Origin: Noviherbaspirillum sp. UKPF54
Lineage (GTDB): Bacteria; Pseudomonadota; Gammaproteobacteria; Burkholderiales; Burkholderiaceae_D
Direction of reading: 5' to 3'
Assembly: GCF_007874125.1 (NCBI RefSeq)
Contig: NZ_CP040128.1
Coordinates: 1,612,001-1,676,000 of the forward strand
DNA: 64,000 bases
The position numbers and the translations under genes are program-made. Below the pieces are notes generated by a model, which was not told the origin of the DNA, made no database searches, and saw nothing but the letters and a program-made list of their open reading frames with translations. This document shows, in pieces, positions 1,123 to 60,323 of this stretch (its first letter is position 1; the number at the start of each line of letters is the position of its first letter).

Positions 1123-3072
1123 CTACTCTTGCGCCATCAGCGTGGTCACGTAATTCAGTGCCTCGCGCGCGCTGTGGCTGTCGTAGCCGTATTCGTCGAC
1201 CAGGCGCCGCTCGACGACGGAGATCTTTTGACGCACCTCCTCGTCGGGCCGCGCGCTGGAAGACACCAGGCGCAGCACTTCGCGCCGCTGCTCGAACAGG
1301 TACTGCTGCACCGCGTTATGCAGCTGCGCATGGCTGTCGAGCGTGAATTTCTCGCCGCGCTTGAACGCGCCCATCGCCTTGCGCACCACCTCCTGGCGGA
1401 ACGACTGCTTGCCCGAATCGGAGATGTGGATTTTTTCTTCCACCGCACGCAAGAAGCGTTCGTCCGGCTTGCGCTCCTCGTTGGTGATCGGGTCCTTGAT
1501 CTGGCGGTTGTCGAGCGTGGCCTCCACCTCGTCCAGGTACTTGTCGAGCAAGTCTTGCGCCTCCTGTTCGAACGACACGAACAAGGCCTTGTGCACGTCT
1601 TCCTTGACCCAGCGATTGTAGAAATCCTTGCGCGCCAGCACCAGGTAATCGATCCACTTGCGCTTGCGCTTCGGATCGATGCGCGCGTCGTTTTCGATCG
1701 CGTCTTTCAGGGCCAGTAGCACATCCATCGTGGTCAGGCTTTTCGCGTTCGACTGGATGATGGCGTTCGAAAGCGCATTGATCACGAAGCGTGGCGAAAT
1801 GCCGGACAGGCCCTCGTCCGGCATGCGCTGCTTGAGCCTTTCGGTTTCGGCGTGGGCATAGCCTTCCACCTCTTCACTGGCGTAGAGGCGGACTTTCTTG
1901 CTTAGTTCCAGTTCCTTTTCCTCGCCTTCGTGCAGGCGCGTCAGGATCGCGAACACGGCCGCAGTGTGCAGCACATGCGGGTCGAGGTGCACTTCGCGGA
2001 AGGCGGGCGCCGCCGAAGAAATCAATTTCTTGTAAATTCGCGCCTCGTCCTTGTAATTCAGCGTATAAGGCACCTGGATGATCACCATGCGGTCGAGCAG
2101 CGCCTCGTTCTCGCTCTCCTGCAGGAACTTGCGGAATTCGGCCAGATTGGTGTGCGCGAGGATGGTTTCGTCGAGATAGATCAGCGGGAAGCGCGACACC
2201 TTCACGTTCTTTTCCTGCGTCAGCGTCAGCAGCAGGTACAGGAATTCGCGCTTGACCTTCAGGATCTCGATCATTTCCAGCATGCCGCGCGAGGCGGCGT
2301 ACACCGCGCCGGACCAGGACCATGCGCGCGGGTCGCCCTCGTCGCCGTATTCCGCGACCTTGGACAGGTCGACCGAGCCTACCAGGTCGGCCAGGTCGGC
2401 CGTGGTCGGGTCGTGCGGCGCGTAGGTGCCGATGCCGATGCGGCCAGCCTCCGAAATGAAGATGCGCTCGACCGGCATGCGCAGGAAATCGCCTCCGTAT
2501 TCGGTATCGAGGCGGCTGCGGCAATGCGGGCACATTTCGCCGATGATCTCGACGCCGTAGGTGTCGCGAAAGCGCGGCCGCAGCGAGTGCGGGATCAGGT
2601 GCAGCGGCGACTCGTGCACCGGGCAGCCGTGAATGGCATACATGGCGCCGGCCTCGGTCAGGCTGTATTCCTCCAGCCCGCGCTTGAGCAGGATCACCAG
2701 CGTCGACTTGCCGCCGGATGGCGGGCCCAGCAGAAGCAGCAGCCTGCGTCCCACTTCGGAGCCGGCGGCGGCAGCCTTGAAATAGTCCACCACGCGATCG
2801 ATCGCTTCATCGACGCCGAACAGTTCCTGGTCGAACAGCCGGCAGTGGAAGTTGCCGTTGCCGTCCTCGCCGCCCATCCAGCGGATCATGTCCCACATGT
2901 ACTGATGCGAAGTGCGCGCCACGCCCTGCGGATCCGCCGGCAATACCCTTTCGAGAAACTGGGAGAGCGTGCCGGACCAGTAGGTGGCACGGTGGTCCTG
3001 GGTGAACGCAATCAGGCTCTTGATGAAGCCTTCTTGCTGTTCAGTATGGTTTGCATCCTGTTGCGTCGTCAT
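1123..3072 (-). CDS. prkA: Serine protein kinase PrkA (YeaG family)
   Basis: A 649-residue protein of typical PrkA length. An N-terminal AAA-type domain has a Walker A motif GPPSGGKS at residues 116-123. The C-terminal half carries the kinase-related domain; LPxDPQGVARTSHQYMWDMI near residues 44-63 is characteristic. In enterobacteria YeaG acts with YeaH in the response to sustained nitrogen starvation. Here prkA is the first gene of a leftward operon with the DUF444 gene. The start codon at 3072 is preceded by a GGGGAG-like ribosome site. A 613-bp gap separates it from the rightward operon beginning at 3686. Confidence 0.95.
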   Translation of the reverse strand: MTTQQDANHTEQQEGFIKSLIAFTQDHRATYWSGTLSQFLERVLPADPQGVARTSHQYMWDMIRWMGGEDGNGNFHCRLFDQELFGVDEAIDRVVDYFKAAAAGSEVGRRLLLLLGPPSGGKSTLVILLKRGLEEYSLTEAGAMYAIHGCPVHESPLHLIPHSLRPRFRDTYGVEIIGEMCPHCRSRLDTEYGGDFLRMPVERIFISEAGRIGIGTYAPHDPTTADLADLVGSVDLSKVAEYGDEGDPRAWSWSGAVYAASRGMLEMIEILKVKREFLYLLLTLTQEKNVKVSRFPLIYLDETILAHTNLAEFRKFLQESENEALLDRMVIIQVPYTLNYKDEARIYKKLISSAAPAFREVHLDPHVLHTAAVFAILTRLHEGEEKELELSKKVRLYASEEVEGYAHAETERLKQRMPDEGLSGISPRFVINALSNAIIQSNAKSLTTMDVLLALKDAIENDARIDPKRKRKWIDYLVLARKDFYNRWVKEDVHKALFVSFEQEAQDLLDKYLDEVEATLDNRQIKDPITNEERKPDERFLRAVEEKIHISDSGKQSFRQEVVRKAMGAFKRGEKFTLDSHAQLHNAVQQYLFEQRREVLRLVSSSARPDEEVRQKISVVERRLVDEYGYDSHSAREALNYVTTLMAQE

Positions 3073-3685
3073 CGCATCTGCTCCCCGTAAGGTTATTCCG
3101 ATGTAATAGAGACACCCGAAAATGGATTACGTTTCTGCCACCCTCGATTTAAGTATAGGGCGCTTCGAAAATTTCGAATGATGAGGGTGATCAATGAATG
3201 CACCCCGATGAACGCCCGCCCACGCACCCGTCTCGTTCCGTCCGGACGGCATATGCCGGCCGTAACTACAGCGATAGCAAGATGCATGCAAGCATATGTA
3301 AGGAGTGGTAAATGGCTCGCATGCGATCAAGTGGTGCGCAATTCTCCCGGATCGGTGCATGCGATCTTCGCGCTGGCGCGCGGCGCTCGAAACAATGTTG
3401 CAGATATTTATGGTCTCGGAAAAAATTACATGCCTGCTGTGAGCCCTGGCGGCGCCGCGCTTCTTCAAGCGACGCTGTTCGAGTGCCAACAATGGAGCGG
3501 CGTTCCCGATGATTCGTTATTTTGGAAGCAGCGGTGCTCGCATAGGGAATTGAACTTTCGTATAAGAAATAATTGACGTGGATCAATGGCGGAAATTTTG
3601 GGATTTACGATAGTGTGAGCAGACATGTTTCCCTATGCTATTAAGATGTAATACGCGGCGGAAAACCGCAAATGAAAGGCATCAC
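3073..3685. other. Divergent intergenic region between prkA and the beta-CASP nuclease operon
   Basis: About 600 bp with no convincing gene. Open frames here (for example 3178-3576 on the plus strand) have no recognisable domain or ribosome site. The region should hold promoters for both divergent transcripts. The only site I can name is the FNR-type box at 3573-3586 near its right end. Confidence 0.6.
3573..3586 (+). promoter_or_regulatory. FNR/ANR-type box
   Basis: TTGACGTGGATCAA matches the FNR/ANR consensus TTGAT-N4-ATCAA at 9 of 10 positions. It lies 100 bp upstream of the ATG at 3686, a plausible distance for activation of the nuclease/phosphorylase operon when oxygen is low. Binding is inferred from the motif only. 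Confidence 0.65.
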
Positions 3686-5047
3686 ATGCAGGTTCAGTTT
3701 CTCGGTGCAACAGGGACCGTTACCGGATCGAAATATCTTGTCAACGCGGGCCGGAAGAAAATTCTCGTCGACTGCGGGCTCTTCCAGGGCTACAAACAGC
3801 TCAGGCTGCGCAACTGGGCGCATTTGCCGGTCTCGCCTGCGGCAATCGATGCAGTCGTGCTGACCCATGCCCACCTCGACCATAGCGGATACATTCCGCT
3901 GCTGGTAAAAAGCGGCTTCAAGGGAAAGATTTACTGCAGCGAAGCGACGTATGACCTGTGCAAGATATTGCTGCCGGACAGCGGGCATCTGTTGGAGGAG
4001 GAAGCCGCCTATGCCGAGCGGCACGGCTTTTCCAAGCACAAACCGGCGCTGCCGCTTTATACGCAGGATGACGCGCGGCATTCGCTGCATTTCTTCGCGC
4101 CAGTAAAGTTCGATCAGCGCTTCAATCCGATCGACGGCCTGACTGGGCGATTGATTCATGCCGGTCATATCCTCGGTGCCGGCATCCTGACGCTCGACAA
4201 TGGCGCAACCACGGTGACTTTTTCCGGCGATCTCGGGCGTCCGAACGATCCGGTCATGCTGCCGCCGGCATACATCGAACGATCTGATTATCTTGTGGTG
4301 GAATCGACATACGGCAACCGGCGCCACGATCCAGCGGACCCGATGATCATTCTTGGCAACACGATCAGGGAGACTGTTGCGCGTGGCGGTGTCGTCGTGA
4401 TCCCATCGTTTGCCGTCGGGCGCGCCCAGGAGCTGATGTATTACCTGCACCAGCTCAAGCAGTCGGGCGCCATTCCGCGCCTGTTGCCCGTCTATCTGAA
4501 CAGTCCGATGGCGGTCGATGCCACCGTGTTATATCGGAAACATCGTAGCGATCACCGCCTGGATATCGAGCAGTGCACAGCCATGTGCCAGGCGGCGAAA
4601 ATCGTCAACAGCGTCGAGGAATCAATCGCATTGAATCAGCAACGGATGCCGATGGTTATCATCGCCGCCAGTGGCATGGCGACCGGCGGCCGCGTATTGC
4701 ATCACCTCAAGGCATTTGCGTCCGACCCGCGCAACACTATCCTGTTTGCCGGATTCCAGGCCGGCGGTACGCGCGGCGCAGCCATGGTGGCGGGCGCCGA
4801 AGCGATCAAGATCCACGGTGAATACGTGCCGCTGCGGGCGCAGGTGGTCCAGATCGAAAACCTGTCGGCGCACGCGGATGGCGAGGAAATCCTGGCCTGG
4901 CTATCGCACTTCCAGCGACCGCCGCGCAAGACCTTTATCACGCACGGGGAGCCGGATGCCGCCGACGCATTGCGCAGGAGCATCGAGGAACGCCTGCATT
5001 GGCAATGCGAGGTGCCGGAATATCTGTCCACGGCGGAGCTGACATGA
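3686..5047 (+). CDS. Beta-CASP metallo-beta-lactamase-fold nuclease (RNA-processing type)
   Basis: A 453-residue protein beginning MQVQFLGATGTVTGS, the usual start of this family; an upstream in-frame ATG at 3635 would add 17 unrelated residues, and AAAGG lies just before 3686. The zinc motif HAHLDH covers residues 61-66. Later beta-CASP signatures include SFAVGRAQEL, the MATGGR segment, LSAHAD and THGEP near the C-terminus. Relatives are bacterial and archaeal RNA exo/endonucleases related to CPSF73. Its stop overlaps the next start (ATGA), so it is translationally coupled to the phosphorylase. Together with the upstream FNR-type box this suggests RNA turnover feeding nucleotide salvage under low oxygen; the substrate is inferred. 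Confidence 0.85.
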   Translation: MQVQFLGATGTVTGSKYLVNAGRKKILVDCGLFQGYKQLRLRNWAHLPVSPAAIDAVVLTHAHLDHSGYIPLLVKSGFKGKIYCSEATYDLCKILLPDSGHLLEEEAAYAERHGFSKHKPALPLYTQDDARHSLHFFAPVKFDQRFNPIDGLTGRLIHAGHILGAGILTLDNGATTVTFSGDLGRPNDPVMLPPAYIERSDYLVVESTYGNRRHDPADPMIILGNTIRETVARGGVVVIPSFAVGRAQELMYYLHQLKQSGAIPRLLPVYLNSPMAVDATVLYRKHRSDHRLDIEQCTAMCQAAKIVNSVEESIALNQQRMPMVIIAASGMATGGRVLHHLKAFASDPRNTILFAGFQAGGTRGAAMVAGAEAIKIHGEYVPLRAQVVQIENLSAHADGEEILAWLSHFQRPPRKTFITHGEPDAADALRRSIEERLHWQCEVPEYLSTAELT

Positions 5048-6588
5048 GCGACAGGCATCATCCCGGCCAGAGCCCGCTTAACGGCCCGGCCCATGTGCTG
5101 CGCATGCGCCGCATCGGCATCGACACCTATCTCGAACCGGTCGTCTACATGCGCAGCGACTGCCACATATGCCGCTCGGAGGGTTTCGAGGCGCATTCCC
5201 GCATCGAGGTATGGCGCGGCGGGCAGCGTATCATCGCCACCCTCAACGTGGTCCATTCGCCGCTGCTGGCGCTCGATGAAGCAGGCTTGTCGGAAGCCGC
5301 CTGGCGCGCGCTGGGCGGCGTCGACGGCGAACAGATCAAGATATTCCATCCGCAGCCGGTGCAGTCGTTTTCTTATGTGCGCGGAAAAATCTTCGGCAAG
5401 CCGATTGACGCGGAGGGCGCCGGCGCGATCATGCGCGACATCGTCGACGGCCGCTATTCGGACATGGAAATGGCGGCGTTCATCGCCACCTGCGCCGGCA
5501 ACCGCATGGATACCGAGGAAATCACGGCATTCACCCGCGCCATGATCAATGTCGGCAAGCGGCTCGAATGGGGCCGCCACCCGGTGGTGGACAAGCATTG
5601 CGTGGGCGGCCTGCCGGGCAACCGCACCACGCTGATCGTGGTGCCGATCGTCGCAGCCTGCGGCCTCACGATTCCCAAGACGTCGTCGCGCGCGATCACG
5701 TCGCCGGCCGGCAGCGCCGATACGATGGAAACGCTGGCGCCGGTGGCGCTCGACTTGGCCCGGATCAGGCGCGTGGTGGAACGGGAAAACGGTTGCATCG
5801 CGTGGGGCGGTGCGGTCAGCCTGAGCCCGGCCGACGACATCCTGATCCGGGTCGAGCGTCCGCTCGGCCTCGACAGCGACGGCCAGCTGGTGGCTTCGGT
5901 ATTGTCCAAGAAGGCTGCGGCTGGCTCTACCCATGCGCTGATCGATATCCCGGTGGGGCCTACGGCGAAGGTGCGCTCGGCGCAGGCCGCGCAGCTGCTG
6001 GGCGAGCGCCTGATCGGGGTCGGGCGGGCGCTTGGCATCGAGGTGCAGACCATTGTGACCGACGGCCGGCAGCCGATCGGGCGCGGCATCGGGCCCGCGC
6101 TCGAAGCGCACGATGTGCTTGCGGTTTTGCAAAATCTTCCCGATGCGCCGGACGACTTGCGCCAGCGCGCGCTACTGCTGGCCGGCAAGGTACTTGAAAT
6201 GGGCGGCAAGGCTCCGCCGGAAAAAGGCCTGGAGATGGCGCATGCCGCGCTGGCAAGCGGAGCGGCATGGAAAAAGTTCCAGGCAATCTGCGACGCGCAG
6301 GGCGGCATGCGTACGCCGCCCACGGCGGCGTACAAGTATGTGCTGGCCGCAACCGTGAACGGTCGCGTGATGGAAATCGACAACCGGCGCCTGGCACGCG
6401 CGGCCAAGCTCGCTGGCGCACCCAAGGCGCTTGCCGCCGGCATCGTGCTGCATGCCGCGCTCGATACGACGGTACAAGAAGGGCAGCCACTGCTGACCAT
6501 TCATGCCGAATCGCCGGGCGAACTGGCCTACGCGAAAACCTACGTGCTGGCTGAAAAAGACATGATCTTGATTAACGAGGACCGATGA
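5044..6588 (+). CDS. AMP/thymidine phosphorylase, archaeal-type long form
   Basis: A 514-residue member of the pyrimidine-nucleoside/AMP phosphorylase family. It carries the roughly 80-residue N-terminal extension of the archaeal AMP phosphorylase group, which ordinary DeoA (about 440 residues) lacks. Phosphate and nucleoside site motifs are visible: KHCVGGLPGNRTT, then KTSSRAITSPAGSADTME. The biochemically studied archaeal enzymes convert NMP plus phosphate to ribose 1,5-bisphosphate plus base. The start at 5044 overlaps the upstream stop, and the stop overlaps the mini-ORF start at 6585. NMP or deoxynucleoside specificity cannot be settled from sequence, but a PRPP-synthetase-like gene next door favours ribose-phosphate metabolism. 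Confidence 0.85.
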   Translation: MSDRHHPGQSPLNGPAHVLRMRRIGIDTYLEPVVYMRSDCHICRSEGFEAHSRIEVWRGGQRIIATLNVVHSPLLALDEAGLSEAAWRALGGVDGEQIKIFHPQPVQSFSYVRGKIFGKPIDAEGAGAIMRDIVDGRYSDMEMAAFIATCAGNRMDTEEITAFTRAMINVGKRLEWGRHPVVDKHCVGGLPGNRTTLIVVPIVAACGLTIPKTSSRAITSPAGSADTMETLAPVALDLARIRRVVERENGCIAWGGAVSLSPADDILIRVERPLGLDSDGQLVASVLSKKAAAGSTHALIDIPVGPTAKVRSAQAAQLLGERLIGVGRALGIEVQTIVTDGRQPIGRGIGPALEAHDVLAVLQNLPDAPDDLRQRALLLAGKVLEMGGKAPPEKGLEMAHAALASGAAWKKFQAICDAQGGMRTPPTAAYKYVLAATVNGRVMEIDNRRLARAAKLAGAPKALAAGIVLHAALDTTVQEGQPLLTIHAESPGELAYAKTYVLAEKDMILINEDR

Positions 6589-6662
6589 ACATGCAATGTG
6601 ATACCCATGCCTTGAATCCGCGCACCGGCGCCGCAACCCCGGACTGGGAGGGCAAGCGATGA
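6585..6662 (+). CDS. 25-residue mini-ORF coupled at both ends
   Basis: The ATG at 6585 overlaps the stop of the phosphorylase gene. The TGA at 6660-6662 overlaps the ATG of the PRPP-synthetase-like gene at 6659. The predicted peptide begins MNMQCDTHALNPRTG and has no known motif. Its last codons contain the GGGAGGG that serves as ribosome site for the next gene. It may simply carry ribosomes across the 70-bp gap or may make a real micropeptide. Confidence 0.4.
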   Translation: MNMQCDTHALNPRTGAATPDWEGKR

Positions 6663-7564
6663 TCCCGATTCTTTTTGCCATGCCGGGCAACGAAGCCTTC
6701 GCGCTTCACCTGGACCGGGCGATGTCCTGCGAAGTCGGGCAGATGGACATGCGGCGCTTTCCGGACGGCGAAACCTATGTGCGCCTGTTATCTCCGGTGC
6801 GCGAGCGCGACGTGATCTTCGTCTGCACGCTGGACCGCCCGGACGAGAAAATGATGGCGCTCTACCTTGCCGCCCGCACCGCCCGCGAACTCGGCGCACG
6901 CAGAATCGGCCTGATCGCGCCCTATTTGGCCTACATGCGGCAGGATGCGCGATTCCAGGAGGGCGAGGGCGTCACTTCGGCGCATTTCGCCAGTTTCGTT
7001 TCCGATTTCTGCGACTGGCTGGTGACCGTCGATCCGCATCTGCACCGCCACCATCGGCTCAATGAAATCTACAGCATCCCCACCAAGGCGGTGCGGGCGG
7101 CGCCCCATATCGGTGAGTGGATCGCGGCCAACGTCGAGCAGCCTGTGATCGTCGGCCCTGATGCCGAAAGCGAACAGTGGGCGGCCAAGGTGGCGAAGTC
7201 GGTCGGCTGTCCTTACGCCGTCCTGAACAAGGTACGCAAAGGCGACAGCGACGTGGAGGTGTTCGCTCCCGAAAACAGCGCATGGCAGGGCGGCACGCCG
7301 GTGCTGGTGGATGATATCGCCTCGACCGCGCATACGATGATCGCGGCAGCGGACAAGCTCAAGACGGCAGGTCTGCCGCCTCCGGTGTGCATCGCGGTGC
7401 ACCCGATCTTTGCCGGCAACGCATACGAGGAGCTGAGCGCGGCGGGCGTGGCGCGCGTCGTCAGCTGCAATACCATCGCGCATCCCTCCAACGGCATCGA
7501 TATCAGCGAAGAGGTGGCCGTCGCGGCAGTCGAACTGATGGCGATCCTGCCGATTGAGCTTTAA
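6659..7564 (+). CDS. Ribose-phosphate pyrophosphokinase (PRPP synthetase)-like protein
   Basis: A 301-residue protein with the family fold: RRFPDGETYVRL near the N-terminus, the ATP-site region PYLAYMRQDARF, VDPHLHRH (metal-binding His), the flexible-loop KVRKGD, and the PRPP loop VLVDDIASTAHTM. The loop reads STAHT where housekeeping enzymes usually read STGGT or DTAGT, and the protein is slightly shorter than bacterial Prs (about 315), so it is probably a paralogue. It ends the FNR-box operon and is followed within 4 bp by a strong hairpin. Inferred role: regenerating PRPP from sugar phosphates released upstream in the pathway. Confidence 0.8.
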   Translation: MIPILFAMPGNEAFALHLDRAMSCEVGQMDMRRFPDGETYVRLLSPVRERDVIFVCTLDRPDEKMMALYLAARTARELGARRIGLIAPYLAYMRQDARFQEGEGVTSAHFASFVSDFCDWLVTVDPHLHRHHRLNEIYSIPTKAVRAAPHIGEWIAANVEQPVIVGPDAESEQWAAKVAKSVGCPYAVLNKVRKGDSDVEVFAPENSAWQGGTPVLVDDIASTAHTMIAAADKLKTAGLPPPVCIAVHPIFAGNAYEELSAAGVARVVSCNTIAHPSNGIDISEEVAVAAVELMAILPIEL

Positions 7565-7567
7565 TGT

Positions 7568-7611
7568 TGTTGGCAGCCAGTGGCGCCGGCTGCCAACACG
7601 TGTATGTTTTT
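7568..7611 (+). terminator. Rho-independent-type terminator after the salvage operon
   Basis: A perfect 11-bp stem (TGTTGGCAGCC at 7568-7578 pairing with GGCTGCCAACA at 7588-7598) with a 9-nt loop, followed 9 nt later by TTTTT. Confidence 0.7.
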
Positions 7612-7854: not shown

Positions 7855-8808
7855 ATGACGATCACACTGGCCCGATCCCATTCGGTCTACAGCACCAAGG
7901 ACGTCGAATCGGCGCAGGAAAGGGCGCGTGCCCTGAACTCGCCCGAGCTGGAAGCCTTCTACGACAACATGCTGGCGCTGGGCGGAGAGCGCTTCGTGAC
8001 CACGCCGTCGTCGACCGACGCGCTCGATCCGCTGTATGAAGATTGCCCGAACTTCGAGGAAGTGCTGGACGACTTGACGCGTTACGTCGGGTTGTCGCTG
8101 GCCGGCGGTGCGGGCGTCAACGTGATGCCTCTCCTGCTGCTGGGTGATCCGGGCGTGGGCAAGACCCATTTCGGCAAGCGGCTGGCGGCCGCACTGGGCA
8201 CCGAATTCGAATTCATCGGCATGAATGCGCTGTCGGCCGGATTCGTCATCACTGGCAGTTCGTCGACCTGGAAGGGGGCGAAATGCGGCAAGGTGGCGGA
8301 ACGCCTGGTGCGCGGCAAGTTCGCCAATCCTGTGGTGCTGCTCGACGAGGTGGAAAAGGCGACCGGCTCCACCCAGTCCGATCCGATGGCGGCCCTGTAC
8401 CAATTGCTGGAACCGGAAACGTCGCGCGCCTTTCACGACGAATTCATCGATGTCGACCTCGACGCCAGCCAGGTGTTCTGGGTGCTGACGGCCAATAGCC
8501 TGGACGGCATTCCGCCCGCGCTGCTGAGCCGGATGGCAGTCTACGAAGTGCCTGCACCAAATGCGGAACAGGCGGCGGCCATCGCGCAGCGCGTGTACGG
8601 AGGGTTGCTGCGCGAGCTGAAATTGCAGAACATGGAGGCCGAATTGCGGGGCAAGGTGCTCGACAAGCTGTCGGAAATCTCGCCGCGCGAAATGCGCAAG
8701 GCCTTGCTGGATGGGCTGGGCTATGCCGTGGCCGCCGGCAGGACGGAGCTGTTGGCGGAGGATGTGCGTGTCAAGAGCGACAGCGGCAAGCGCAGGATCG
8801 GCTTCTGA
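7855..8808 (+). CDS. AAA+ ATPase, Lon-like ATPase module without protease domain
   Basis: A 317-residue protein. Walker A is GDPGVGKT at residues 97-104, Walker B is VVLLDEVEK, and a sensor segment VLTANSLDGIP follows. The small-domain region KLSEISPREMRKALLDGLGYA resembles the Lon AAA module, but the protein ends before any Ser/Lys protease domain. The start at 7855 is chosen because AGGAG precedes it; an in-frame ATG at 7804 lacks this. It is convergent with the tyrosine recombinase, their stop codons separated by one base. A remodelling or unfolding role is all that can be inferred. Confidence 0.8.
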   Translation: MTITLARSHSVYSTKDVESAQERARALNSPELEAFYDNMLALGGERFVTTPSSTDALDPLYEDCPNFEEVLDDLTRYVGLSLAGGAGVNVMPLLLLGDPGVGKTHFGKRLAAALGTEFEFIGMNALSAGFVITGSSSTWKGAKCGKVAERLVRGKFANPVVLLDEVEKATGSTQSDPMAALYQLLEPETSRAFHDEFIDVDLDASQVFWVLTANSLDGIPPALLSRMAVYEVPAPNAEQAAAIAQRVYGGLLRELKLQNMEAELRGKVLDKLSEISPREMRKALLDGLGYAVAAGRTELLAEDVRVKSDSGKRRIGF

Positions 8809-11310: not shown

Positions 11311-12400
11311 ACCGCCGCAGGCGCGCGCCGTTAGCGGCGATCCAGTCGAAAATCTCAGGCCACAGCTGGCCGTGCGCATTGCGTCCCACCAGCGCGCCGA
11401 CATGCGCGAGCGCGATCCCCGTGTCGCCATGATAGGCCAGCAAGCGTTTCTCCTTGCTGGCGGTCGCGCGGTGGAAATCGATGATCGAGGCGGGGGGAAT
11501 GATCAGGCTGCGCGGGTCGTAGACCGCGAGGAATGGCGCGGTGATGCTGGACGGACCGATGTCCTTGCCATGGACATGCAGGCGGCCTCGCATGAACCGG
11601 TCTTCGCGGTAGAGATGCTCGACGACCTGTTCGAACAGGCGGCGTGACATCGGCGCTTCGTCGAGCGTCCAGCGTTGCACTTTCCAATGTCCTTCCAGCT
11701 CCTCGGTGCAGCCCAGGCTGCGGATCAGGTCCGCATAGCGTTCGACCTGAAATGAGGTGGGCGAGGCGGTGATGCTCGCCTGTCCCAGCACGGAACCCGG
11801 CACGGTATCGAACCAGCGGGTGATCTCGGCGGCGCGCGGACCGAATGCAAGCAAGGGGCCGAAGGAGCCGGATGCCTCGCCAAAATGCAGCGGCGCTTCC
11901 ACCGTCACCAGGCCGGCGACCCTGTCCGGCCGCAAGCCTGCATAAATCGCCGCAAATACTCCTCCCAGCGAGTGAGCGAGAAGAAAGACAGGCTGACCGG
12001 CCGATCCGGCGGACGAAGCAATCGCCTCGATGCAACGCTCGATGAGCGCATGGCCGTAATCCTCCAGTCCGTTCCCCGGGCCGCCATCGGCGCCGGGCGG
12101 ATCGCTCCACTCGATCAGGTAGACCTGCATGCCGCGCGCAAGTGCGGCGCGCACGACGCTGTGGTCGGGCGACAGGTCCCAGATATAGGGGCGCTTGATG
12201 GGCGCGGGCACAATCAGCGCGACCGGCCGTGCCGCGTCGTCTCCATAGCGACGCAAGCGCATCCCGGCATGCGTCAATACCGTCCGGTACGGCGCCTCTT
12301 CCGGTCCCAGCCCCAGCCGCTCCAGTTCCAGGCCGCGCTGGCGCCGCAGCCGGTCCAGCGATTCGTACCACCAGCGGATGGCGTTTGTGGACGGATACAT
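11309..12400 (-). CDS. Alpha/beta hydrolase related to poly(3-hydroxyalkanoate) synthase
   Basis: A 363-residue protein with the length and layout of class III PhaC subunits. The nucleophile elbow is AHSLGG with Ser144, where PHA synthases have Cys in GxCxG. Other triad candidates are Asp in AVYDPRS and His in ALAHVG. The segment IKRPYIWDLSPDHSVVRA is PhaC-like. The serine nucleophile argues for an esterase, lipase or depolymerase-like activity rather than polymer synthesis. The gene is monocistronic and points away from the cyanophycin locus on its left side, so any storage-polymer link is only suggestive. Confidence 0.75.
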   Translation of the reverse strand: MYPSTNAIRWWYESLDRLRRQRGLELERLGLGPEEAPYRTVLTHAGMRLRRYGDDAARPVALIVPAPIKRPYIWDLSPDHSVVRAALARGMQVYLIEWSDPPGADGGPGNGLEDYGHALIERCIEAIASSAGSAGQPVFLLAHSLGGVFAAIYAGLRPDRVAGLVTVEAPLHFGEASGSFGPLLAFGPRAAEITRWFDTVPGSVLGQASITASPTSFQVERYADLIRSLGCTEELEGHWKVQRWTLDEAPMSRRLFEQVVEHLYREDRFMRGRLHVHGKDIGPSSITAPFLAVYDPRSLIIPPASIIDFHRATASKEKRLLAYHGDTGIALAHVGALVGRNAHGQLWPEIFDWIAANGARLRR

Positions 12401-12511
12401 GGGATCGGTCTCCAGGCGATGGGCAATCGTCGTTTGCTAATGCCTGGTCAGATACGGTGGCGCTGGATTCGGTTCAATCGGCGCCGCGCCGCCACGCCGT
12501 CACGTGAGGCC

Positions 12512-12976
12512 TCAGAGGAAACGATCCAGCAGCTTGCGGCTGTGCTTGTCCAGGGCTTGCAGGTCCTTGACCAGGAACTGGATGCCGTTGCTGTCGGCAA
12601 TCAGCAGCGTGACATGGGCGATGCGGCGGATATCTTCTTCGCCCTTGAGCACGAAGCTGGTATCGCCGCGGTCGGTCTCCACATCCCAGGTGCTGGGCGT
12701 GGCAAAGCTCGACACGCGGTGGATGCGCCGGATCTGCGGCAGGAATTCGCGGCTGGCGAGCTCTTCCTCCACCAGCTTGCGCGCGTCCGGCGGCAGCGCC
12801 GATCTGGATTCGATCCATGCCAGTTCGCGACCGTCGGCGTTGACCAGCGCCAGGCCCTCGTCGGGCGCGGCGATCGGAAAGGCGCGCACCGGCACCACGC
12901 CCTCATGCACTTCGCCGTCGTCCGCGGTGTAGACCAACCGGCCGAATGCGTTGCGTTGCAACTGAAAAGGCTTCAT
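12512..12976 (-). CDS. DUF1854 protein associated with cyanophycin metabolism
   Basis: A 154-residue protein matching the DUF1854 family by its length and pattern (GRLVYTADDGEVHEGVVPVR, then the WIESRSALP and RIHRVSSFATPSTW blocks). Its ATG overlaps the stop of the ABC transporter (ATGA at 12973-12976), so the two are coupled. In betaproteobacteria this pair recurs next to cyanophycin synthetases. No catalytic motif is visible. A regulatory or accessory role for the transporter is inferred from coupling. Confidence 0.85.
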   Translation of the reverse strand: MKPFQLQRNAFGRLVYTADDGEVHEGVVPVRAFPIAAPDEGLALVNADGRELAWIESRSALPPDARKLVEEELASREFLPQIRRIHRVSSFATPSTWDVETDRGDTSFVLKGEEDIRRIAHVTLLIADSNGIQFLVKDLQALDKHSRKLLDRFL

Positions 12977-15240
12977 GCCGCCACCTCCTGTTCCGACGCT
13001 TCGCCAAGCACGGCTTCGTTCTCCGCCAGGCGCGCCTGCGCCTGGTGCAGCTGGTAATAATGGCCTTCGCGCGCCAGCAATTCCTCGTGATTGCCGACTT
13101 CGACGATCTGGCCGCGATCCAGCACCACCAGGCGCGAGGCGCGGCGCAGCGTCGACAGGCGGTGCGCGATAGCAATGGTGGTACGGCCGCGCACCAGGTT
13201 GTCCAGCGCTTTCTGGATTTCACGCTCGGTGGTGGTGTCGACCGACGAAGTCGCTTCGTCCAGGATCAGGATGTGCGGGTCGATCAGGAGCGCGCGCGCG
13301 ATCGAGATGCGCTGGCGCTCGCCGCCGGACAGCGTCTGGCCGCGCTCGCCGACGAGCGAATCGTAGCCGTGCGGCAGGCGCAGGATGAATTCGTGCGCGT
13401 GCGCGGCGCGCGCGGCGGCGACGATTTCCTCGCGCGTGGCGTCCGGCTTGCCGTAAGCGATGTTTTCCGCGATGGTGCCGAAAAATAGGAAGGGCTCCTG
13501 CAGCACCAGGCCGATGTTGCGGCGATAGTCGGACACCGCGAACGAGCGGATGTCGGTGCCGTCCACCCGGATCGAGCCGTCGGCCACGTCATAGAAGCGG
13601 CAGATCAGGTTGACCAGCGTGCTCTTGCCCGAGCCGCTGTGGCCGACCAGGCCGATCATTTCGCCGGGTTCGATGGCAAGATCGACGCCGCGGATCACGG
13701 CGCGGTTACCGTAGCGGAAGCCGACATTGCGCAGCTCGATGCGTCCTTTCACGCTCGGCAGCGGCACCGGGTTAGCAGTCTCGGGGACGTTCGACACATG
13801 GTCGAGGATGTCGAAGATGCGCTTGGCGCCGGCGGCGGCCTTTTGCGTGACCGACACGATGCGGCTCATCGAGTCGAGCCGGGTATAGAAGCGGCTGATG
13901 TAGGCAATGAAGGCGGTCAGCACGCCGACGGTGATCTGGCCGTGCGAGAGCTGCCAGATGCCGACGCCCCATACCACCAGCAGGCCGATCTCGGTCAGCA
14001 GCGTGACGGTCGGCGAGAACAGCGACCAGACCTTGTTGACGCGGTCGTTCACCGCCAGGTTGTGCTGGTTCGCCTCGCGAAAGCGCGCCGCTTCCCGCTT
14101 TTCCTGGGCGAACGCCTTCACCACGCGGATGCCGGGGATGGTGTCTGCCAGCACGTTGGTCACTTCCGACCAGATGCGGTCGATCTTTTCGAAACCGTGG
14201 CGCAGCTTGTCGCGCACCACGTGGATCATCCAGGCGATGAAAGGCAAGGGCAGCAGCGTCACCAGCGCCAGCCAGGGGTTGATCGACACCAGGATCGCCG
14301 CCGTCATCACGATCATCAGCACGTCGGTGGCGAAGTCGAGCAGGTGCAGCGACAGGAACACGCAGATGCGGTCTGACTCCGAGCCGATGCGCGCCATCAG
14401 GTCGCCGGTGCGCTTGCCGCCGAAATATTCGAGCGACAGCTTCATCAAGTGCTCGTAGGTGGAGGTGCGCAGATCGGCGCCGATGCGCTCGGACACCAGC
14501 GCCAGGATGTAGGTCTTGGCCCAGCTTAGCGCCCACGCCAGCAAGGCCGAGGCCAGCAGCCCGGACAGGTAGAGCGCGGCCAGCCCGACATTGATCTCCT
14601 TGCCGTTCTGATAAGGAATCAGCACGTTATCCATCAGCGGCATCGACAGGTAGGGAGGCACCAGGTTGGCGGCGGTGGCGGCCAGCGTCAGCAGGAAGCC
14701 GGCCAGCAGCTGGCCCTGGTAGGGGCGGGCGAAGCGCCACAGGCGAAACAGGGTCCAGGTCGACGGCGGCGTATGGATTTCCTTGGTGCAGACCGGGCAT
14801 TCCTCCTGGTCCGGCGGCAGCGCAGCCATGCAGCTCGGGCACAGCGCCTGCTCCGGCGGCGTGACCGGCGTGCCCGAAACGGCGGCGTCGCGTTGCGCGT
14901 CGAAGTGTTCGATCAGGCGCAATGCAGCCGGATTGCGGCCCAGCGTGTAGCGCCAGCCGGCCAGGCGCGCGTGCGCGTCGTGCAGTTCGAGCGTGCCGAC
15001 GCCGGCATGGTCGTGATGCGCCAGTTCCAGGCCTTGGCGCAGCGGCCAGGATTGCCAGTCGTCTGCGCCCGGCGCCTTCGCCAGCAGGCGGCGCTCGGTG
15101 ACGACAAGCAGACCGGCATTAAAATGCAATCGGGTGTCGAGGTCGAGTTCGAGGCAGGCGACGGCGGATTCGCCTTCGGCCAGTTGCGACTCCAGGCCGG
15201 GACGCCAGGACTCGGGAAGCGGATAATTGGATGACGACAT
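12973..15240 (-). CDS. ABC transporter (fused permease-ATPase) of the cyanophycin locus
   Basis: 755 residues. An unusual N-terminal region of about 160 residues includes a zinc-ribbon-like CPSC...CPVC with Cys134, Cys137, Cys148 and Cys151. It is followed by a six-helix type I exporter domain (about 165-460). The ATPase domain has Walker A GHSGSGKS, signature LSGGERQRISIARAL and Walker B ILILDEATSSVD. The gene is divergent from the cyanophycin synthetases and coupled to the DUF1854 gene. The family is known mainly by this neighbourhood; its cargo is unproven. Export of peptides or a role at the granule are both possible. Confidence 0.85.
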   Translation of the reverse strand: MSSSNYPLPESWRPGLESQLAEGESAVACLELDLDTRLHFNAGLLVVTERRLLAKAPGADDWQSWPLRQGLELAHHDHAGVGTLELHDAHARLAGWRYTLGRNPAALRLIEHFDAQRDAAVSGTPVTPPEQALCPSCMAALPPDQEECPVCTKEIHTPPSTWTLFRLWRFARPYQGQLLAGFLLTLAATAANLVPPYLSMPLMDNVLIPYQNGKEINVGLAALYLSGLLASALLAWALSWAKTYILALVSERIGADLRTSTYEHLMKLSLEYFGGKRTGDLMARIGSESDRICVFLSLHLLDFATDVLMIVMTAAILVSINPWLALVTLLPLPFIAWMIHVVRDKLRHGFEKIDRIWSEVTNVLADTIPGIRVVKAFAQEKREAARFREANQHNLAVNDRVNKVWSLFSPTVTLLTEIGLLVVWGVGIWQLSHGQITVGVLTAFIAYISRFYTRLDSMSRIVSVTQKAAAGAKRIFDILDHVSNVPETANPVPLPSVKGRIELRNVGFRYGNRAVIRGVDLAIEPGEMIGLVGHSGSGKSTLVNLICRFYDVADGSIRVDGTDIRSFAVSDYRRNIGLVLQEPFLFFGTIAENIAYGKPDATREEIVAAARAAHAHEFILRLPHGYDSLVGERGQTLSGGERQRISIARALLIDPHILILDEATSSVDTTTEREIQKALDNLVRGRTTIAIAHRLSTLRRASRLVVLDRGQIVEVGNHEELLAREGHYYQLHQAQARLAENEAVLGEASEQEVAA

Positions 15241-58480: not shown

Positions 58481-58484
<4 letters not shown>
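57504..58484 (-). CDS. 2-oxoacid dehydrogenase E1 alpha subunit (AcoA-like)
   Basis: 326 residues. [35 protein letters not shown] and the thiamine-binding region [20 protein letters not shown] ending in CENN are typical of the AcoA/PdhA group. The [12 protein letters not shown] loop includes the usual phosphorylation-loop region. Its start overlaps the acyl-CoA synthetase stop. Pyruvate, acetoin or a branched 2-oxoacid are all possible substrates; sequence alone does not decide. Confidence 0.92.
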
Positions 58485-60247
<1,763 letters not shown>

Positions 60248-60309: not shown

Positions 60310-60323
60310 TTGATTCGGATCAA
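60310..60323. promoter_or_regulatory. Perfect FNR/ANR-type box in a divergent promoter
   Basis: TTGAT-TCGG-ATCAA matches the FNR/ANR consensus in all ten positions. It lies 63 bp from the leftward synthetase start and 143 bp from the chosen rightward start, so it could control one or both operons in response to oxygen. Confidence 0.75.

Follow-up and report, generated by a model that had tools for sequence, protein, structure and literature searches.

The 64,000-nucleotide stretch of the Noviherbaspirillum sp. UKPF54 genome analysed here (the window) contains an operon in which an FNR-type box is followed by ORF1, ORF2, a mini-ORF and ORF3. We regard it, with moderate confidence, as a horizontally spread module that FNR activates and that turns over RNA and nucleotides when oxygen is low. 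What can be read in the DNA itself is an FNR box with a suitably spaced predicted -10 hexamer, three genes that appear to be translationally coupled, and an FNR gene in the same genome. In the mechanism that we propose, a fall in oxygen would lead FNR to switch the operon on, and ORF1 would likely act as an RNA-cleaving enzyme. ORF2 would likely split nucleoside 5'-monophosphates (AMP, and probably CMP and UMP) by phosphorolysis into the free base and ribose 1,5-bisphosphate (R15P), as TK0352 does in archaea. ORF3 would be an extra, diverged PRPP synthetase (PRS) interconverting ribose 5-phosphate (R5P) and ATP with PRPP and AMP; it could re-prime the freed bases for salvage or, in reverse, produce ATP from PRPP and AMP. 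The common purpose of the three genes would be the reuse of bases and ribose during RNA degradation.

All three genes lie on the plus strand. ORF1 (positions 3686–5047, 453 aa) encodes an MBL-fold/beta-CASP/RMMBL ribonuclease-like protein, ORF2 (5044–6588, 514 aa) an AMP/NMP-phosphorylase-like member of the "thymidine phosphorylase family" matched by PRK04350 and TIGR02645, and ORF3 (6659–7564, 301 aa) a class-III-like PRPP-synthetase paralogue with a GPDAESEQW loop, matched by PRK07199. The original prediction of a beta-CASP nuclease and a PRPP-synthetase-like gene is backed by family profile matches, and the ATGA overlaps that it described were found at all three junctions (5044, 6585 and 6659). 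The mini-ORF (25 codons, 6585–6662, plus strand) had been counted as an operon member. In N. autotrophicum the corresponding ORF has an equal length and a peptide that diverges beyond the initial residues, and none exists at the corresponding junction of the congener locus L142; the mini-ORF was therefore rejected as a gene and is probably only a translational-coupling spacer. The single terminator of the same prediction stands in part. A good hairpin is present 3' of the operon (7564–7601, plus strand; -22.8 kcal/mol on folding, z -2.7), its T-run begins several bases beyond the stem and the terminator scan made no call there, so that a terminator is weakly indicated.

Noviherbaspirillum sp. 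UKPF54, the host of the operon, is a soil bacterium. The genus-conserved neighbours of the operon, both assigned by profile matches, are a PrkA-family serine protein kinase gene (1123–3072, minus strand) and a Lon-like AAA ATPase gene (7855–8808, plus strand). Genes of these two kinds flank both sides in seven of the eight genus loci, window counted; L142 shows the AAA side alone because its contig ends. Seven congeners with a PRS gene and no phosphorylase were examined, another PRS congener being left out. In five of them the PRS gene occupies the site syntenic with that of the window and no phosphorylase exceeds the cut-off; three of these five also have no RNase gene within approximately 11 kb. 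The PRS gene lies elsewhere in the other two (L174 and L179).

The FNR/ANR-type box TTGACGTGGATCAA (3573–3586, plus strand), found by a motif scan of the window and genome, matches TTGAT-N4-ATCAA at nine of ten positions, as originally proposed. The window holds four sites with at most one mismatch to this motif against 1.1 expected, a number reached in 3 of 100 shuffles. The motif is enriched genome-wide: TTGAYNNNNRTCAA was found 49 times across the 4.72 Mb of the genome, compared to 5 times for the reversed control. It is also present 64–92 bases upstream of ccoN and 83 bases upstream of hemN (positions compared by eye), and the genome encodes a Cys-ligand FNR protein in which the C-x2-C-x5-C motif and the ESISR helix could be read by eye. 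In class II FNR promoters the box is centred near -41.5, which sets its distance to the -10 element. The palindromic FNR box of such promoters lies upstream of the operon, and the predicted -10 hexamer GATAGT (3609–3614, plus strand; 4/6 match), 29 bases past the box centre, fits this geometry. The spacing was searched for in seven of the nine boxed family loci (two lone-phosphorylase loci were left out) and in five genus loci. The -10 lay 29 bases from the box centre in 7/7 boxed loci of the first set; L173 has it at 29 bases and L175 at 30, and none could be placed in three PRS-only genus loci with one-mismatch boxes. A well-spaced -10 thus followed the box in nine of twelve promoters, the chance of a match of at least 4/6 at one place being about 0.04.

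A box occupies the corresponding site in all eight genus loci (five exact, three with one mismatch) and is exact in 5/5 of those in which the MBL gene comes first; six other PRS loci (L174, L179–L183) are without it. Beyond the genus and a few relatives, direct boxes are rare. An exact box lies within 400 bases upstream in only 6 of 35 family loci. Of the family genomes, 37 exceed the phosphorylase cut-off, and 35 of these entered the count; G161, whose phosphorylase gene is interrupted by a stop, scored under the cut-off and stands outside it. In the broader set, made of the best 80 of 587 confirmed genome loci plus four plasmid loci, an exact box was present within 350 bases in 2 of the 80 loci left after four with fewer than 150 upstream bases were dropped. 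The P value for the exact box (1e-4), like that for gene co-occurrence given below, is not a probability of independent events because related sequences count many times. Given the rarity of direct boxes, a universal association of box and trio was rejected, and conservation of the box does not extend to Burkholderiales as a whole.

Published data on Bradyrhizobium diazoefficiens bear on the regulation. Among the available data of PMC6515984, the products of bll3117-bll3116-bll3115 rise at 0.5% O2, with protein log2 fold changes of 2.9 (MBL), 4.4 (PRS) and 2.1 (phosphorylase), and transcript fold changes of 15.4, 7.7 and 5.1, respectively. In PMC9104804, as far as available, the delta-fixK2 mutant compared to the wild type gives -30.6 for MBL and -6.6 for the phosphorylase, and a FixK box is predicted at -74; the part of the FixK2 table available has no separate row for PRS. 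The available part of PMC6515984 does not mark the trio among the direct FixK2 targets listed in 2008. As these two papers present it, this trio has the same three product names, one predicted operon and an FNR-family box, whereas its order is TP-PRS-MBL and its regulator FixK2; its presumed orthology to the window trio is drawn from names and operon structure rather than from a sequence comparison. The available parts of the two papers do not discuss what the trio does. In the literature searched, which includes few of the subscription papers, the trio is named only in these two publications, and the searches yielded neither an enzyme activity nor expression data for the present organism. Taken with the box, the -10 spacing, the conservation in the genus and the FNR gene, these microoxic and FixK2 data agree with the low-oxygen control that had been predicted, and such control of the operon is well supported at the sequence level.

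The module is widespread and mobile. In 195 genomes, phosphorylase and PRS occurred together in 27, phosphorylase only in 10, PRS only in 9 and neither in 149 (P = 2e-17, with related sequences counted repeatedly). In 9 of the 36 genomes with PRS no phosphorylase exceeds the cut-off, G161 with its interrupted gene being among the nine, so that a tight functional bond between the two is not obligatory. In the best 80 of the 587 confirmed loci, which are not a random sample, ORF2 and ORF3 are adjacent in 59 and all three genes are in order in 28. The adjacency spans Proteobacteria, Bacteroidota, Chlamydiota and MAGs of other phyla. The module is found in 116 plasmid records, and a 21.5-kb island carrying it is 99.4–99.5% identical across Achromobacter, Pseudomonas and Pigmentiphaga records. 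The surroundings of the module often include genes for a P-type ATPase or a phosphoketolase. Neighbours were counted, with no control gene, in 89 loci (the best 80 of 587 plus nine plasmid loci) as single-linkage clusters each named from one representative: a copper-kind P-type ATPase occurred in 48, a phosphoketolase-like gene in 27, an acetate-kinase family in 11 and an archaeal-type GAPDH in 10.

The last three of these neighbours would suit a module that feeds RNA ribose to fermentation, R15P or R5P being converted into xylulose 5-phosphate and then, through phosphoketolase, into acetyl phosphate and ATP. A Bradyrhizobium phosphoketolase/acetate kinase pair also shares the FixK2 table with the trio (PMC9104804, available part). 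This reading is nevertheless unlikely here: the present genome has no phosphoketolase match, the step from R15P to R5P has no assigned enzyme, and the neighbour counts are those made with no control gene. It is quite unlikely that the genes are loose cargo, sharing stress or metal islands and low-oxygen control with no common pathway. The plasmid records, the near-identical island in three genera, the copper-kind ATPase, and the absence of MBL and phosphorylase in differing combinations at the genus site are what such cargo would produce, but adjacency of ORF2 and ORF3 across phyla and overlapping frames in the window exceed the accidental retention usual in islands.

The profile scores of ORF2 were 683.3 for PRK04350 (cut-off 434) and 592.0 for TIGR02645 (cut-off 434.6), and 479.8 for the AMP phosphorylase (AMPpase) equivalog TIGR03327, under the cut-off of 535. 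In a comparison with 18 archaeal AMPpases and only 3 pyrimidine nucleoside phosphorylases (PyNPs), 26 diagnostic columns of ORF2 agreed with the archaeal NMP/AMP phosphorylases and 4 with the PyNPs (24 and 4 when two columns with PyNP gaps are removed), which makes phosphorolysis of NMPs to R15P likely. An arginine of PyNPs has a base-binding role; the column is Glu271 in ORF2, and Glu also occupies it in 79 of the 89 bacterial members and in 17 of the 18 archaeal AMPpases. The N-terminal domain of AMPpases is important, and in the alignment ORF2 shares this region with them (82–84 of 88 columns, 19–106, filled in 18/18 archaeal sequences). The Thermococcus enzyme matched ORF2 with 342 bits, whereas the best PyNP reached 141. 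The columns, the N-terminal region and these bit scores make it very unlikely that ORF2 works as an ordinary phosphorylase of pyrimidine nucleosides or thymidine in an operon for routine nucleoside salvage, as would be suggested by its database name ("thymidine phosphorylase family protein"), by its phosphate loop D-K-H, as in PyNP and unlike most AMPpases, and by the genome, where no other full-length phosphorylase of the superfamily was found and the one further match is short and weak. The archaeal type assigned to the phosphorylase in the original prediction is supported in that the active site resembles AMPpase more than it does a pyrimidine phosphorylase. In the archaeal pentose bisphosphate pathway or "NMP shunt" (PMC9700705, in part), TK0352 resembles ORF2 in sequence, N-terminal region and diagnostic columns; the present genome differs by having no R15P isomerase, by the PRS paralogue and beta-CASP partners, and by the FNR box.

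ORF3 scored 413.8 bits against PRK07199 (cut-off 322), and its best solved relative was 1u9y (140 bits), which we take to be the class III (archaeal) PRPP synthetase of M. jannaschii. The RQD, His, K-x-R and DD motifs of 1u9y are kept. In contrast, PDxGG/GA is replaced by GPDxESxQW, so that the Gly-Gly/Ala of PRPP synthetases after the ribose-binding Asp is missing, and the ORF3 group has mostly Arg/His in the R5P loop and an extra HLHR stretch. Almost every one of the 68 family members has this loop, its E and its S each being present in 98%, and no assay of this group was found in the literature searched. PRPP synthetases use R5P. ORF3 keeps the R5P and ATP contact residues named for E. coli PRPS in the available part of PMC9232217 (F34, D36, R94, H127, D168, D218, D219, T223 and T226; position 223 is Thr in ORF3 and Ser in 58% of the family), which, Ser/Thr being allowed at 223, points to ordinary R5P and ATP chemistry.

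The linear route of the original prediction, from RNA through NMP and R15P to PRPP with ORF3 closing it directly or with a helper, is highly improbable: the shared operon layout and the ORF2-ORF3 adjacency would suit it, and the GPDxESxQW loop makes a changed 1-position substrate conceivable, but the contact residues are kept, the predicted product of ORF2 is R15P and not R5P, the genome has no match to the R15P isomerase TIGR00511 and no PhnN over the cut-off (best match 59.6 bits against 156), and in five congeners the locus has PRS but no ORF2. The three enzymes thus probably do not form one chain of intermediates. The proposed absence of a Rubisco branch holds in so far as the isomerase linking R15P to RuBisCO is missing; a RuBisCO large subunit is encoded elsewhere in the genome. 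We would consider as a long shot an oxygen-controlled NMP shunt, present in many bacteria, in which the GPDxESxQW paralogue, replacing R15P isomerase and Rubisco, would use RNA-derived R15P to make PRPP, or else R5P while ADP/ATP is formed, RNA being an anoxic reserve of energy and pentose that some carriers would drain to phosphoketolase and acetate kinase. If ORF2 is an NMP phosphorylase, a mainly archaeal reaction would be accessory, mobile and partly under low-oxygen control in Proteobacteria, Bacteroidota and Chlamydiota, and "thymidine phosphorylase family" genes would be misnamed. In that case, bacterial RNA recycling without oxygen and the fate of R15P without R15P isomerase would become directly testable. 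The PRS paralogue is in itself unusual, some relatives keeping it without the phosphorylase.

ORF1 has the Pfam domains PF10996 and PF07521 and the motifs THAHLDH60, GH160, SGD180, ESTYG206, SAHAD394 and HGE420, and thus combines the MBL, beta-CASP and RMMBL domains with the metal and catalytic motifs of beta-CASP ribonucleases. The Thermus RNase TTHA0252, its best solved relative by sequence, shares these domains and catalytic motifs, as do other beta-CASP RNases, whereas operon and regulation differ. A type VII CRISPR Cas14 (361.9 bits, far under the cut-off of 800) and a phage-defence system (trace PADLOC matches for ORF1, none for ORF2 and ORF3) were rejected. The words phosphorylase and pyrophosphokinase were not found in the available main text on the low-oxygen-activated (lxa) locus of Burkholderia cenocepacia (PMC6127331), whose protein BCAM0300, rising in chronic infection, resembles ORF1 in belonging to the MBL superfamily.

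On the sequence, ORF1 to ORF3 form a real and mobile FNR-boxed operon. Its predicted products are a protein resembling RNases, an enzyme resembling NMP phosphorylases, and a PRPP synthetase of diverged sequence. The source genome is a single 4.72-Mb contig, of which the window covers positions 1,612,001–1,676,000. The window's nearest protein relatives, among named matches, belonged to Noviherbaspirillum and other Oxalobacteraceae; ORF2 was 90% identical to the phosphorylase of Noviherbaspirillum autotrophicum. The operon is flanked by a PrkA kinase gene of opposite orientation (1123–3072, minus) and a Lon-like AAA gene (7855–8808, plus). ORF1 (MBL/beta-CASP/RMMBL, hereafter MBL; 3686–5047), ORF2 (PRK04350/TIGR02645 phosphorylase; 5044–6588), a 25-codon ORF (6585–6662) and ORF3 (PRK07199 PRPP synthetase, PRS; 6659–7564) follow one another on the plus strand, and all three junctions proved to be the ATGA overlaps of the original prediction. 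In N. autotrophicum, whose phosphorylase is the 90% identical one, the 25-codon ORF was of equal length but encoded a different peptide; it was missing from the congener locus L142. As for the single terminator also predicted, the plus-strand hairpin at 7564–7601 is stable, with a better fold than 200 of 200 shuffles, but its T-run begins several bases past the stem, and the hairpin went unreported in the terminator scan.

The FNR-type box TTGACGTGGATCAA (3573–3586, plus strand) was among the 49 places in the genome where the motif TTGAYNNNNRTCAA occurred, against 5 for the reversed control pattern. The same genome carried boxes 64–92 bases upstream of ccoN and 83 bases upstream of hemN (positions compared by eye). 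Beside this region it encodes an FNR protein in which the C-x2-C-x5-C motif and the recognition helix ESISR were identified by eye. In class II FNR promoters the −10 element is expected at a 29-base offset from the box centre; a GATAGT hexamer stood at this distance in the operon promoter, where the predicted transcription start is near 3621. The offset, with four of six matches, was found in all seven boxed promoters tested, with box-to-ATG distances from 69 to 122. It measured 29 and 30 bases in the added genus loci L173 and L175, respectively, and no −10 could be placed in the three genus loci having PRS only, giving 9 placed elements for 12 promoters overall. All eight genus loci possessed the box, exact in the five bearing MBL and with one mismatch in the three PRS-only loci. 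Family-wide, an exact box was present upstream of the operon at 6 of the 35 loci, compared with an expectation of 0.7 from those loci and none for the reversed control pattern; in the broad set of 80 loci it was present at 2, compared with 0.6 expected and none for the control. With up to one mismatch allowed, the family count was 9 (expectation 2.6, control 0) and the broad count 7 (expectation 4.3, control 3). These counts thus tie the box to the genus locus and to that of some relatives, not to the trio everywhere. Low-oxygen control of the operon is very probable.

In Bradyrhizobium diazoefficiens, according to the portions of two papers covered here, one predicted operon comprises three genes that share the product names of the trio (PMC6515984); their likeness to the window trio is judged from names and operon structure. 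At 0.5% O2 the proteins rose by log2 values of 2.9 (MBL), 4.4 (PRS) and 2.1 (phosphorylase), and the transcripts 15.4-, 7.7- and 5.1-fold, respectively (PMC6515984). Deletion of fixK2 changed MBL by −30.6 and the phosphorylase by −6.6 relative to the wild type, with a predicted box at −74; the table portion covered held no separate PRS row (PMC9104804). Weighing the other way, the genes were unmarked as direct FixK2 targets in the part of PMC6515984 covered.

FNR-type boxes were clustered on the source contig at about 1.715–1.907 Mb, which is a core low-oxygen region of this genome. One locus there (L091) contained ccoN, ccoP, ccoG, hemN and genes for a FixI-like P-ATPase, an acetate-CoA-ligase-like protein and a universal-stress-like protein, with the FNR gene adjoining. 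Within the window, a perfect box TTGATTCGGATCAA (60310–60323) separates an acetate-CoA ligase gene (58484–60247, minus) from a divergent fatty acyl-AMP-ligase-like gene. The listed TTG start of the latter falls inside the box, which makes a start farther downstream the more probable one.

The Thermococcus enzyme (4ga5/4ga6) matched ORF2 with 342 bits, the best pyrimidine nucleoside phosphorylase (PyNP) with 141 bits, and ORF2 was 37–39% identical to the aligned archaeal AMP phosphorylases. In an alignment of 89 bacterial members, 18 archaeal AMP phosphorylases and 3 PyNPs, 26 well-conserved columns sided with the AMP phosphorylases against PyNP (two being gaps in PyNP) and 4 went the opposite way. 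The column of the PyNP arginine, presumably a pyrimidine contact, was Glu in 79 of the 89 bacterial and 17 of the 18 archaeal sequences. The N-terminal region of AMP-phosphorylase type aligned in ORF2 as well. Counting against this assignment, the phosphate loop of ORF2 carries Lys, as in PyNP, and its AMP_phos score lies below the cut-off. The archaeal TK0352 phosphorolyses AMP, CMP and UMP, as given in the part of PMC9700705 covered. With this precedent, the columns, the Glu and the N-terminal region point to ORF2 as quite probably an NMP phosphorylase. At 479.8 against a cut-off of 535, it was not filed as a member of the AMP_phos equivalog TIGR03327.

ORF3 is the lowest-scoring of three PRPP synthetases in the genome (202 bits, against 407 for the housekeeping-like copy and 258 for the second), and its closest solved structure was 1u9y, an archaeal class III enzyme. 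Its relatives, 68 in one alignment and 5 in another, kept the ribose 5-phosphate (R5P) and ATP contact positions of the Escherichia coli enzyme, allowing Ser/Thr at position 223 (contacts from the part of PMC9232217 covered). The loop after the ribose-binding Asp, however, reads GPDxESxQW, with Q in 100% of the 68 relatives and E, S and W at 98% apiece, where reference enzymes show PDxGG or PDxGA; the second synthetase has a third form, PDARAEQF. Because the contacts are kept, ordinary PRPP synthesis from R5P would, with fair confidence, be the most likely activity; the altered loop makes a new reaction or changed substrate possible, if rather unlikely. Just past the window end, a second PRPP-synthetase paralogue (G000:C1:1676935–1677894) has one TAA inside the matched stretch.

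The original prediction joined the three products in a chain from RNA through ribose 1,5-bisphosphate (R15P) to PRPP. Its second half is missing: the source genome yielded no R15P isomerase and no PhnN match above cut-off, and such a linear pathway is improbable. No phosphoketolase was found in this genome either. Among the best 80 of 587 confirmed loci, ORF2 and ORF3 were adjacent in 59, an MBL relative occurred anywhere in 47, and all three genes stood in window order in 28. Across 195 family genomes, 27 had both phosphorylase and PRS, 10 the phosphorylase alone, 9 PRS alone (one with an interrupted phosphorylase gene) and 149 neither. The genus site, which showed both flanking genes, PrkA and Lon-like AAA, at seven of its eight loci and the AAA gene alone in L142, held MBL–phosphorylase–PRS in three genomes (window, L139, L142), MBL–PRS in two (L173, L175) and PRS only in three (L176–L178); in the last five the upstream PrkA and downstream AAA genes were constant. 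Since PRS is kept at this site where ORF2 is missing, it seems to have a role apart from ORF2. A RuBisCO large subunit gene was present (490 aa ORF; G000:C1:3560827–3561750), next to which, by eye, lie what is probably the small subunit gene and one for a CbbX-like ATPase, and the organism therefore probably has a Calvin cycle.

The phosphorylase occurred on 116 plasmid records (E ≤ 1e-40) and in Chlamydiota, Bacteroidota and Proteobacteria. A trio-bearing stretch of 21.5 kb was 99.4–99.5% identical among Achromobacter ruhlandii, Pseudomonas rhodesiae and Pigmentiphaga records and a Burkholderiales MAG. Six islands of about 20 kb (L021–L024, L028, L029), named as Achromobacter, Pseudomonas, Hydrogenophaga, Pigmentiphaga and two Burkholderiales MAGs, combined the trio with copper-type ATPase, phosphoketolase-like and archaeal-type GAPDH genes; identity was 98.7–99.5% where compared (blastn, L022 left out). 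Neighbours in 89 loci, in clusters named from one representative each and counted without a control gene, included copper-type P-ATPase (48), phosphoketolase-like (27), acetate-kinase family (11) and archaeal-type GAPDH (10) genes. This neighbourhood suggests that ribose may drain into phosphoketolase fermentation in other carriers. An ATP-cone protein gene precedes MBL in some carriers, just upstream in L006 and L130; the copy at L070:7756–8604 is fused to an Mrr-type nuclease domain. Elsewhere in the window, at 11312–15240, a PHA-synthase-like gene adjoins a cyanophycin-metabolism-associated ABC transporter (NF052233, 1451 bits).
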